From: an uncultured Bacilli bacterium
GTDB taxonomy: Bacteria; Bacillota_I; Bacilli_A; RF39; UBA660
Length of the DNA: 32,057 bases
NCBI GenBank assembly: GCA_947628365.1
Contig: CANQZN010000005.1
Span: 1 to 32,057, forward strand
Direction of reading: 5' to 3'
Below the pieces are notes generated by a model, which was not told the origin of the DNA, did no database searches, and worked only from the letters and a program-made list of their open reading frames with translations. Each line of letters begins with the position of its first letter. Within the stretch, counting starts at the first letter, position 1. The position numbers and the translations under genes were made by a program. Below are positions 3,256 to 32,057 of this stretch, piece after piece.

Positions 3256-3284
3256 TTGACACCGGGGGGGGGGTAATATATAAT
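3256..3284 (+). promoter_or_regulatory. Poly-G-spacer promoter, copy 1 (10 G, 17-bp spacer)
   Basis: TTGACA 3256-3261, cc, G10 (3264-3273), taata, TATAAT 3279-3284. Confidence 0.85.
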
Positions 3285-3313: not shown

Positions 3314-4621
3314 ATGAGAATAATTAACAAGAAATATTTATTAATAATAATTTTGGTAGGAGTAATAATAACCGGTATCATAATATTTAAACCAAAAGAA
3401 AATATTAAACTTGATAATGTAATATCAAAACAAAAAGTAAATAATAAAACATTTGCTATGTATACTGAAACAGATAATGGATATGAAGAATATAAAGATA
3501 ATAAATTTCCAGAAGGATATGTCTTAAATACAAATGAAAGTAAATGTATAGATAATAATGGAAAAGAAGTAGATAATATATTAAGTTTTAATAATGGAGA
3601 AGTGACTATAACAAGTGGAAAAACAACTTATTGTTATTTATATTTTGATAAGAGTTTAGGACTTGAAATAAAAGAAAAAGAACCCAAAGGGTTAAGTTTA
3701 GATAAAGAACGAGGAGCAATGTATCGATTTCAAGGTCAAGCGAGAGATGCAGAAGGAAATGAACTAGTAGATAATTATATATGTTTTGGAACAAGTGACA
3801 AAGATACATGTGTAAAAGATACAGATCATTATATGTATAGAATAATAGGAATAGAAACATCTACAGGAAGAGTAAAAGTAATAAAAAAAGAGGCATTAAA
3901 TAACACAGTAAATTGGTGGGATGATTATGATCATGATAAAACATTCCCAGAAAGTAAAATATATGAAGCAATAAGTGGAGATAAATTTTTAACCAATAAA
4001 GACTATATTCCACTAGGTTGGGAAGAAAAAATATCAACTAATACATGGATGTATGGAGATATGTTGAGCAACGATGTATTAGGAGCACGACAAACAGGAG
4101 AGGGTTTATATCAAACGGAAACCGGAAAGAAAGCAACAAAATGGTATAATTACGCAACGAAAGAAACGCCAGGTGCAATACAAGCAACAGTAGGATATGA
4201 GTCCTCACCATATAAAGGACAAACAGTATATTATACAGACGGAAAAGGAAAATGGACAAAGTCATTTGATTCAAAGGTAAGTTTAATGTATCTACACGAT
4301 TATCATTATTCAGTAAGTGATACAGCAAATTGTCAAATTACTGCAGGACAATATGCGGAGTGTAAAACAGGCTGGATGCATTTAAGTAATAATGATTCAG
4401 GTCTTACTGGTGAAGGTGTTCATGAATGGTCGATGTCACGGTATGGTTGGGATACTTTTTATGGCTTTTTTCATGGTCTTGGAATAAGTATCTATGGTTA
4501 TACTAGTAACGGTATCTTGATGAGCTATTTTTCTATTCGCCCTGTATTTTATATAAACGCCTCAGAAAAATTATTAAGTGGAACCGGAACGATAACAGAT
4601 CCTTTTATGATAAAAGAATAA
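3314..4621 (+). CDS. Predicted surface/secreted variable protein, copy 1: TM anchor, stalk, C-terminal FSIRPVF module
   Basis: N-terminal hydrophobic segment MRIINKKYLLIIILVGVIITGIIIF. Paralogous to 29258..30529 over most of its length. C-terminal SIRPVFYINASEKLLSGTGTITDPF. Confidence 0.85.
   Translation: MRIINKKYLLIIILVGVIITGIIIFKPKENIKLDNVISKQKVNNKTFAMYTETDNGYEEYKDNKFPEGYVLNTNESKCIDNNGKEVDNILSFNNGEVTITSGKTTYCYLYFDKSLGLEIKEKEPKGLSLDKERGAMYRFQGQARDAEGNELVDNYICFGTSDKDTCVKDTDHYMYRIIGIETSTGRVKVIKKEALNNTVNWWDDYDHDKTFPESKIYEAISGDKFLTNKDYIPLGWEEKISTNTWMYGDMLSNDVLGARQTGEGLYQTETGKKATKWYNYATKETPGAIQATVGYESSPYKGQTVYYTDGKGKWTKSFDSKVSLMYLHDYHYSVSDTANCQITAGQYAECKTGWMHLSNNDSGLTGEGVHEWSMSRYGWDTFYGFFHGLGISIYGYTSNGILMSYFSIRPVFYINASEKLLSGTGTITDPFMIKE
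4424..4545 (+). other. Hypervariable block (about 4424-4526) plus conserved 3' anchor (4527-4545) in variable protein copy 1
   Basis: Aligned by hand to 30335-30456: same length, about 47/99 nt differ, scaffold residues conserved, followed by an identical 19-mer atttttctattcgccctgt. Confidence 0.7.
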
Positions 4622-29203: not shown

Positions 29204-29228
29204 TTGACACCGGGGGGTAATATATAAT
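29204..29228 (+). promoter_or_regulatory. Poly-G-spacer promoter, copy 2 (6 G, 13-bp spacer)
   Basis: TTGACA 29204-29209, cc, G6 (29212-29217), taata, TATAAT 29223-29228. Confidence 0.8.
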
Positions 29229-29257: not shown

Positions 29258-30529
29258 ATGAGAATAATTAACAAAAAATATTTATTGATAATATTGTTGG
29301 TAGGAGTAGTACTAACTGGTGTCATAATATTGAAACCAACTAAAGAAGTTAAACTAGATAATGTTATCTTAAAACAAGAGGTAAATAATAAAACTTTTGC
29401 TATGTATACAGAAACAGATAATGGTTATGAGGAATATGAAGGAAATAAATTTCCAGATATGTATGTACTTAATCTAACCGAATCAAAATGTATAGATAAT
29501 AATGGTAATAAATTAGAAGATGTATTAAGTTATGAAAATGATAAAGTAACAATAACAAGCGGAAATACAACATATTGTTATTTGTATTTTGATAAGAGCT
29601 TAGGCTTAGAAATAAAAGAAAAGAATCCAAACAAATTAAGTGAAGAAATCAAAGGAGCTATGTATAGATTTCAAGGCCAACAAAAAGATGATGTTCGAAA
29701 TTATATCTGTTTCGGAACTAATGATCAAAATACTTGTAAAGGTGATACTGATCACTATATGTATAGAATAATAGGAATAGAAGCAGAAACAGGAAGAGTA
29801 AAAGTAATAAAGAAAGAAGCCTTAAATGAGAAATATCCATGGTATACAGATAAAGATGCAGATATAGATTTTCCAAAAAGCAAAATATATGAAGCACTAA
29901 ATGAAGATAAATTTTTAAAAAATATATCTTATGTACCAACAGATTGGAACGCTAAAATATCCGATAATACTTGGCTATATGGCGATATGCTTTATAATGG
30001 TTCTTCAGGAGAAACAAGTCAAACTGGAAAAGAATTATATTTAATAGAAACTGGACAAAAAGAAACAAAATGGTATAATTATGCTACAGAGGATACCACA
30101 GGAGCACTACCACATTTAGTAACTGATAAAAATTCTGGAAATATAGGTAAAACAATATATTATACAAATGGAAGTGGATATTGGACAGAAACATTTGAAA
30201 GTAAAGTAAGTTTAATGTATTTACATGATTATTATTATTCTGTAAGTGATGAAGCAAATTGTGATTCGGATGAAAATTGTAAAAGTGGTTGGATGCATTT
30301 ATCTCAAAATGATAAAAATGTATCAAACGGTATCGAGTGGACAATGACACGTCAAGGCTGGCGTATTGTTTTGGGCTGGTTTGACGGATTAATAGTTCCC
30401 GATGATGGTAATATACGTACAGGGGGATTACTTAATAATTTTTCTATTCGCCCTGTCTTCTATATCGATGCATCTGAAAAATTATTAAATGGAAAAGGTA
30501 CACTAGAAGATCCGTTTATAATAAAATAA
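29258..30529 (+). CDS. Predicted surface/secreted variable protein, copy 2
   Basis: Same leader, stalk (KTFAMYTETDNGYEEY..KCIDNNG..TYCYLYFDKSLGLEIKEK) and FSIRPVFYIDASEKLLNGKGTLEDPF C-terminus as 3314..4621. Confidence 0.85.
   Translation: MRIINKKYLLIILLVGVVLTGVIILKPTKEVKLDNVILKQEVNNKTFAMYTETDNGYEEYEGNKFPDMYVLNLTESKCIDNNGNKLEDVLSYENDKVTITSGNTTYCYLYFDKSLGLEIKEKNPNKLSEEIKGAMYRFQGQQKDDVRNYICFGTNDQNTCKGDTDHYMYRIIGIEAETGRVKVIKKEALNEKYPWYTDKDADIDFPKSKIYEALNEDKFLKNISYVPTDWNAKISDNTWLYGDMLYNGSSGETSQTGKELYLIETGQKETKWYNYATEDTTGALPHLVTDKNSGNIGKTIYYTNGSGYWTETFESKVSLMYLHDYYYSVSDEANCDSDENCKSGWMHLSQNDKNVSNGIEWTMTRQGWRIVLGWFDGLIVPDDGNIRTGGLLNNFSIRPVFYIDASEKLLNGKGTLEDPFIIK
30335..30456 (+). other. Hypervariable block (about 30335-30437) plus conserved 3' anchor (30438-30456) in variable protein copy 2
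   Basis: Aligned by hand to 4424-4545, same length, identical 19-nt 3' anchor. Confidence 0.7.
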
Positions 30530-30582: not shown

Positions 30583-31323
30583 TTAGTCATTATTTTCTAA
30601 AAAATATTTAGCTAATTTTTCATAATTATCTTGGCTGTTTAAACAAGTATCTATTAAATAACCTTTTTCATTATTATTTTGATATTCTTTAAGTCCTCTA
30701 ATATAAAAATCTTTATTTCTATCTTCAATATAAAATGGCATTATATTATTATGCAAACATTCACGAAACATTATCATTCTTCCAACACGACCATTTCCAT
30801 CTTGAAAAGGATGAATTTTTTCAAATCTAACATGAAATTCAATTATATCTTCAAAACTTTTATGAGAAATATTATTGTACCATTTTAATAAATCAGCCAT
30901 ATCTTTAGCAACATTTTGAGGAAGAGAAGTTGTAATATTACCTACAAAATTTTTCTTGCTTTTATATTCACCTACATTAAACCAATCTTTTTCATTATCA
31001 GTCAAAGTACCATCTTTTAAGATAAAATGAAATTTTTTAATCATATCTTCTGTAAGAGTATCATCAATTGTATCTAGCATATATTTAAATAGTGTAAAAT
31101 GATTTTTTATTTCTGTAGCATCTTTTAACACTATTACTTTATCACTACTTGTTAAAATTGTTCCTGTATCATAAATACTAGCGGTTTCATCTGGAGTTAT
31201 AGTAGATCCTTCAATACGATTATTATTGTAGGCAAAATTTAATTGTGTTTTATGATATAAATTTCCTGATAAATTCATATTTTTTTGTTCAATTAAAGCT
31301 TTTTTGATTTCACTAACTTGCAT
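30583..31323 (-). CDS. Fic family protein
   Basis: Canonical HPFQDGNGRVGR motif; N-terminal NNNRIEGS inhibitory-helix-like segment. Confidence 0.93.
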   Translation of the reverse strand: MQVSEIKKALIEQKNMNLSGNLYHKTQLNFAYNNNRIEGSTITPDETASIYDTGTILTSSDKVIVLKDATEIKNHFTLFKYMLDTIDDTLTEDMIKKFHFILKDGTLTDNEKDWFNVGEYKSKKNFVGNITTSLPQNVAKDMADLLKWYNNISHKSFEDIIEFHVRFEKIHPFQDGNGRVGRMIMFRECLHNNIMPFYIEDRNKDFYIRGLKEYQNNNEKGYLIDTCLNSQDNYEKLAKYFLENND

Positions 31324-31453: not shown

Positions 31454-31479
31454 TTGACACCGGGGGGGTAATATATAAT
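31454..31479 (+). promoter_or_regulatory. Poly-G-spacer promoter, copy 3 (7 G, 14-bp spacer)
   Basis: TTGACA 31454-31459, cc, G7 (31462-31468), taata, TATAAT 31474-31479. Confidence 0.8.
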
Positions 31480-31508: not shown

Positions 31509-32057
31509 ATGAGAATAATTAACAAAAAATATTTATTGATAATACTTTTGGTTGGAGTAATCATAACCGGTGTCATATTATTTAAACCAAAAGAAGAATT
31601 AAAATTATATGAAGTAAAATTACAAGATGATAATAAAAAAGATTTAGCTATTATGGTAGAACAATTAGATAAGAGTTATAAAGAAAATAATAAAATACCA
31701 TATAAAGGATATACATTAAATGAAACGATGACAAAATGTATAGATAATAATGGTAATGTAGTAAATGAAGAGATTACTTACGAAAATGGAACAATAACAA
31801 TAAGTACAGATAGAACAATATATTGTTATTTATATTTTGATAGACAAGACGAGATAGAAGATTTAAGTGGGCAAAATCATAATGGCAAAAATTATGCAGT
31901 AGAGTGGACAGAAGAAGGAATAACAACAAGCGTTGATTCAAATAATTTGGGCTATGTAGATTGTGGACTTGCAAAGTACGATTTTGAAGATTCAATAACT
32001 ATGGTAACTAGAGTAAAATTTAATGATTTAACCGGACAACAAGATTTTTTTGGAAAT
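31509..32057 (+). CDS. Predicted surface/secreted variable protein, copy 3, with LamG/ConA-like module; truncated by window end
   Basis: Leader MRIINKKYLLIILLVGVIITGVILF and KCIDNNG..YCYLYFD stalk shared with copies 1 and 2; then DLSGQNHNGKNY..GYVDCGLAKYDFEDSITMVTRVKF, typical of LamG/ConA-like lectin folds. Open to the window end. Confidence 0.8.
   Translation, partial: MRIINKKYLLIILLVGVIITGVILFKPKEELKLYEVKLQDDNKKDLAIMVEQLDKSYKENNKIPYKGYTLNETMTKCIDNNGNVVNEEITYENGTITISTDRTIYCYLYFDRQDEIEDLSGQNHNGKNYAVEWTEEGITTSVDSNNLGYVDCGLAKYDFEDSITMVTRVKFNDLTGQQDFFGN

Follow-up and report, generated by a model that had tools for sequence, protein, structure and literature searches.

A hypervariable block in a poly-G-promoted paralog family: probable former target of a multi-template DGR in an uncultured Bacilli bacterium

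The hypervariable block near the C-terminus of the protein that we call copy 2 is real and is part of a genuine DGR target family. We read it as the VR of a DGR-targeted family of about 30 paralogs, a former target that is now drifting and is probably no longer rewritten, and we give this reading a probability of roughly 0.7. Copy 2 lies in a 32,057-nucleotide stretch of DNA (hereafter the window) from an assembly of 1.10 Mb in 88 contigs that is 92% complete (G000). The multi-template system around the block is an interesting and unusual finding, and several other paralogs in the same genome differ from its templates predominantly at adenines.

Results

The window carries three members of the family (Table 1). 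The reading frame of copy 2 is intact, with the hypervariable block (30335-30456) in frame, and its product carries a hydrophobic segment in the N-terminal part and a hypervariable domain in the C-terminal part. The paralog proteins are probably surface-anchored. Across 26 paralogs, amino-acid variability averaged 2.48 bits in the VR columns and 1.09 bits in the rest of the protein. Hence, the hypervariable block proposed by the first-pass annotation was borne out, and variability was in the main confined to it; the per-position profile also revealed a lesser peak of variability at residues 281-300 (1.94 bits). Residues G367, R398, P399 and F401 were invariant in and around the block, with adjacent columns reaching 3-3.6 bits, and the conserved scaffold comprised G, W, V and RPVF.

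Table 1 Features of the three family members in the window.
Feature	Position	Strand	Remarks
Copy 1 promoter, G10	3256..3284	+	Spacer 17 bp; same promoter type as copy 2
Copy 1 gene	3314..4621	+	435-aa paralog
VR1 core, 30 codons	4442..4531	+	Strong DGR codon footprint; matching template not found
IMH-like 3' edge of copy 1	4529..4545	+	Identical to copy 2 edge
Copy 2 promoter, TTGACA - CC(G)6TAATA - TATAAT	29204..29228	+	Spacer 13 bp; candidate phase-variable poly-G tract
Copy 2 gene	29258..30529	+	423-aa ORF; no Pfam match; about 30 near-full-length paralogs in the genome
VR2 core, 30 codons	30353..30442	+	Entropy peak; third-base A 8 vs 14.7 expected; probable former DGR target
IMH-like conserved 3' edge of copy 2, TTTTCTATTCGCCCTGT	30440..30456	+	Exact match elsewhere in copy 1 only
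Copy 3 promoter, G7	31454..31479	+	Spacer 14 bp; same promoter type as copy 2
Copy 3 gene	31509..32057	+	N-terminal part common with the copies, C-terminal part different; truncated by contig end

The VR1 and VR2 cores are of equal length, as had been stated, and have identical residues at 10 of 30 positions and identical bases at 47 of 90. The A content of the block had been given as about 27 of 99; the count is about right, but the composition is ordinary (29 A, 41 T, 33 G and 19 C over 30335-30456), so that the block is not A-rich. The 17-mer at its 3' edge occurs exactly twice in the assembly, in the two window copies on contig C5. In copy 3 the paralog match covers residues 1-118 only (about 118 aa), and its C-terminal part is divergent, as in many other family members. 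Since copy 3 and many members keep the promoter and N-terminus and differ C-terminally, these two parts can be regarded as a common module.

Searches of the window proteins against Pfam, NCBIfam and PHROG returned no significant match, and DUF6273 was matched in just one of seven relatives, at 0.0018. No relatives of the target family were found in the viral contigs searched, and a viral origin was rejected. AlphaFold models of the C-terminal domain (runs of 7 and 6 sequences) were of low confidence, with a mean pLDDT of 52, and for this reason their Foldseek matches (best 9qa6, 1.8e-4) were set aside. Lectins were matched by these models only at E>0.5, leaving a C-type lectin fold for the target domain unconfirmed. 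Between copies 2 and 3, on the minus strand (30583-31323), a 246-aa ORF contains HPFQDGNGR, a motif typical of Fic proteins that was read directly from the sequence.

A search of the genome for reverse transcriptases (RTs) returned two. The DGR-type RT (C11:11003-12115) carries the motif GLPIGNMTSQ...YMDD and matches PF00078 (4.7e-18) and the phage RT family phrog_1423 (1.7e-74). Among PDB sequences it is closest to 8ub7 chain A, 'Reverse transcriptase' (2e-22), which we take to be the BPP-1 DGR RT. Upstream of it lies an Avd homolog that matches phrog_3206, 'Avd protein of DGR' (6e-16), as well as NF033474 (1.5e-8, 34.9 bits) and bAvd (26.9 bits), the last two under the curated cut-offs. Four tandem template units occupy C11 8972-10187, 0.8-2 kb upstream of the RT; each comprises about 112 nt of template-like sequence and a conserved tail, at a spacing of 306-337 nt. 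Between this array and Avd, a 132-aa ORF (L033, 10278-10676) gave a weak match to MutS domain I (6.6e-5), and from this match its product may be a DGR accessory protein. The second RT (L001, 1369-2313 of G000:C8, 314 aa) matched a retron St85-type model just under the cut-off; it was rejected as the DGR RT, as it matches retron-type and not DGR models.

The DGR that the first-pass annotation had postulated is thus present at the level of the genome, with RT, Avd and templates on C11 and with sister paralogs whose VRs match these templates with differences enriched at template adenines. The VR of L012 is a mosaic of TR4 (positions 1-33) and TR3 (34-112), in which 12 of 12 mismatches fall at A and none of 84 non-A sites is changed (hypergeometric p=7e-9). 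The VR of L021 combines TR1 and then TR4, with 10 of 12 mismatches at A. In L006, L024 and L025 the mismatches were likewise enriched at A, more weakly (57-61%; 11/18, 15/26 and 17/30, respectively) and with non-A changes too. The switch penalty in the mosaic fits was set by the analyst's choice. L012 lies on the RT contig C11, and the other four genes lie on C14, C38, C1 and C69; spread over five contigs, most template-matched paralogs are therefore remote from the RT locus. Comparisons of VR and template in relatives gave 14/14, 16/16 and 16/17 mismatches at A. In relative G008, the VR of L237 (G008:C26) matches one template over 67 nt with 8/8 mismatches at A and a second over 68 nt with 12/12 at A (units in L167 and L165), which suggests, from the alignments, a two-template mosaic in this genome also. 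The automated two-template mosaic search in G008 allowed one non-A mismatch per segment, and its results are suggestive only.

The template units look like stand-alone RNA genes of about 300 nt, presumably transcribed on their own. Most units read have a TATAAT box shortly upstream of a leader (typically TAGGTAATCT), which base-pairs across the template with the tail (AGATTATCTA); compensatory leader/tail variants are TAGGCAGTCT/AGGCTGTCTA and AGGGTAGACT/AGTCTATCCT. The last helix is followed by a terminator-like T-run. An alignment of 19 template-unit tails folds with 98.6% paired cells and contains 20 pairs changed on both sides, as compared to a pairing of about 45-50% in slid controls. Across 38 genomes of the genus, a covariance model detected template units in 18, with 4 in the source genome, 13 in G008, 12 in G031 and 11 in G037, many of them on separate contigs. 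In the G037 assembly (template units at loci L169-L174) no RT was found at E<=1e-30; the assembly may lack the RT, or the RT may have diverged.

The window copies themselves did not fit this pattern. None of the four assembled templates and 51 template units from relatives fits VR1 or VR2 (assembly 92% complete), the best A-tolerant score for the window VRs being 13, versus 37-85 for template-matched paralogs. The window's own repeats contained no template, only the paralogs themselves. Against the best template of the same genome, mismatches were spread over all bases, with 18 of 57 at A for VR2 and 12 of 44 for VR1. Hence, the proposal that one template/RT system diversifies both window copies is unsupported, since neither VR fits a template and the differences are not confined to A, and an explanation of copy 2 by A-to-N changes fails against all templates found.

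Because no template fits VR1 or VR2 and their mismatches are not A-biased, a template-free trace of rewriting was sought in codon third bases. Templates contain 0-1 third-base A per 30 codons, as compared to about 47% in the rest of the paralog genes. Against expected counts matched for amino acid, the VRs of L006, L012, L021 and L025 had 1 observed versus about 10-11 expected, and VR1 had 2 versus 9.8 (P=2.7e-5). For VR2 the depletion was partial, with a ratio of 0.54 (P=0.0012; counts in Table 1). Of 867 outside windows, a single one fell to the VR2 level and none to that of VR1. The depletion correlated with similarity to the existing templates (Spearman -0.69, p=6e-4) and recurred in G008, with a pooled ratio of 0.29 and none of 718 outside windows at 0.5 or lower. 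A weak version appeared in G022, which has neither RT nor template unit at the thresholds used: two of seven related genes were below 0.5, and the pooled ratio was 0.73. As a simple measure, the third-base-A footprint offers a way to spot old DGR targets once the template is gone.

All three window copies are preceded by a promoter of the form TTGACACC(G)nnTAATATATAAT, with n=10, 6 and 7 in copies 1, 2 and 3, respectively. A homopolymer thus lies between -35 and -10, and its length varies among the copies. Poly-G promoter phase variation of this kind is known from Neisseria porA/opc, in which a homopolymer between -35 and -10 alters the spacer length. Compared with Neisseria, the present 1.1-Mb genome holds at least 39 promoters of one type, some of them before DGR targets: 39 near-identical promoters have the exact core, with G6-G10 and spacers of 13-17 bp, and 41 were found under a looser pattern. 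The promoters of the window targets appear suited to phase variation and are candidates for switching, so that the earlier description of the proteins as phase-variable holds for their expression, as judged from promoter sequence. A 17-bp spacer is the usual promoter optimum, and on this ground the assembly may show copy 1 in the on state and copy 2 in the off state. Poly-G promoters occurred in 11 of the 38 genomes; both poly-G promoters and template units were present only in the source genome and G023.

Discussion

The RT, Avd and the small MutS-domain-I-like protein are encoded once, on C11, immediately after the tandem array of four template units. In the mechanism that we propose, each of these units would be a small RNA gene of its own, with a TATAAT box, a tail-pairing leader, the template repeat, a structured tail, a final hairpin and a T-run. 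The RT would copy the template RNA with errors at adenines, and the cDNA would then take the place of all or, at times, only part of a paralog VR, giving two-template mosaics. Retrohoming itself and the role of the tail are steps that we infer. The copy 2 VR would once have been written by a process of this kind, as its codons still avoid third-position A, and would since have drifted at non-A positions too; this drift, and the failure to fit any template found, indicate that its rewriting has probably ceased. The poly-G promoter of copy 2, with G6 and a 13-bp spacer, suggests that this gene may serve as a fixed variant of the repertoire whose expression is turned on and off. Extended to the whole genome, one RT/Avd machine with many dispersed structured template RNA genes would rewrite dozens of phase-variable surface proteins, with combinatorial VRs, and old VRs would persist as a frozen, switchable repertoire; we put the odds of this wider picture at about even.

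Three other accounts of VR2 were weighed against that of a former target. VR2 might still be active, with its private 3' edge stemming from a shared missing template or IMH. A template for it could sit in the unassembled ~8% of the genome, which is in 88 contigs; template units in relatives number up to 13 and are scattered across contigs, and the two window copies have the same 17-bp IMH-like edge, with no further exact match in the assembly. However, synonymous sites within the block differ between these copies, whose third bases agree in just 13 of 30 codons, so that one template was not the recent writer of both, and third-base A in VR2 already stands at 54% of expectation, versus near 9% in VRs with a template. 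We consider continued activity unlikely. Homologous recombination or gene conversion among paralogs, in which a donor VR would have passed on the footprint without any action of the DGR at this gene, seems slightly less likely still. About 30 paralogs with common flanks provide the substrate, mosaic VRs could be produced by VR-VR recombination too, and the VR2 footprint could derive from an ancestral VR via gene duplication or conversion and not from retrohoming at copy 2. Against this, the VR2 interior is absent from the other paralog VRs listed, and the block looks private outside its 3' edge; at L012, a mosaic of template sequences with zero non-A changes favours direct template copying.

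That the block has no DGR history, and is a ligand-binding loop of the ordinary kind whose paralog family experiences diversifying selection, is consistent with the lack of A bias in the mismatches of VR2 to existing templates (18/57). It is nevertheless already disfavoured and, in our judgement, very improbable: DGR-written sisters align with the block column by column, the depletion of third-base A is confined to it, and the same genome carries the DGR machinery and A-specific sisters.

DGRs that have more than one TR, serve several targets or act in trans are already known (PMC6642488, PMC10907252). The DGR of Bordetella phage BPP-1 (Brt, Avd, TR, and VR in mtd), as described in PMC6642488, is similar in its RT and Avd homologs, in a template repeat with a non-coding region on its 3' side, in A-specific VR differences, and in a C-terminal VR with a conserved IMH-like 3' edge. 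BPP-1 has one template and one target. In the present genome, by contrast, there are several template RNA units that seem to stand alone, the paralogous genes number about 30 and mostly lie a long way from the RT, and a MutS-domain-I-like ORF is also present. The DGRs of Thiohalocapsa PB-PSB1 (PMC10907252) are likewise chromosomal and have many targets (nine loci, 15 targets), with evidence of in-trans action on remote targets as a further likeness. They fall into four locus classes, each with one complete locus and degenerate loci, and their targets, unlike those here, are putative conflict-system sensors; in our genome a single RT locus was found, with tandem templates, candidate phase-variable promoters and mosaic VRs. 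Of the DGRs in the MetaCSST survey (PMC6642488), that of Stenotrophomonas, with 2 TRs and 6 VRs, is an example in which both TRs and target ORFs are multiple; the passages of that survey consulted report neither TRs as dispersed structured RNA genes nor targets with poly-G promoters. Neither dispersed stand-alone template RNA genes nor DGR targets with phase-variable promoters were found in the open-licence literature searched.

If the wider picture is true, a very small genome of a gut bacterium unites two strategies of antigen variation, poly-G on/off switching and RT rewriting with several templates, and template RNAs that stand alone would lend themselves to use as modular DGR donors. As 19 diverse tails already show covarying structure, recognition of the template RNA by the RT-Avd complex would become testable.

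Nine contigs of the source assembly (C9, C24, C43, C56, C63, C65, C77, C83 and C85) start 36-52 bp upstream of a paralog start codon, within the conserved promoter and leader. Judging by these positions, either the repeat breaks the assembly or the site may recombine.
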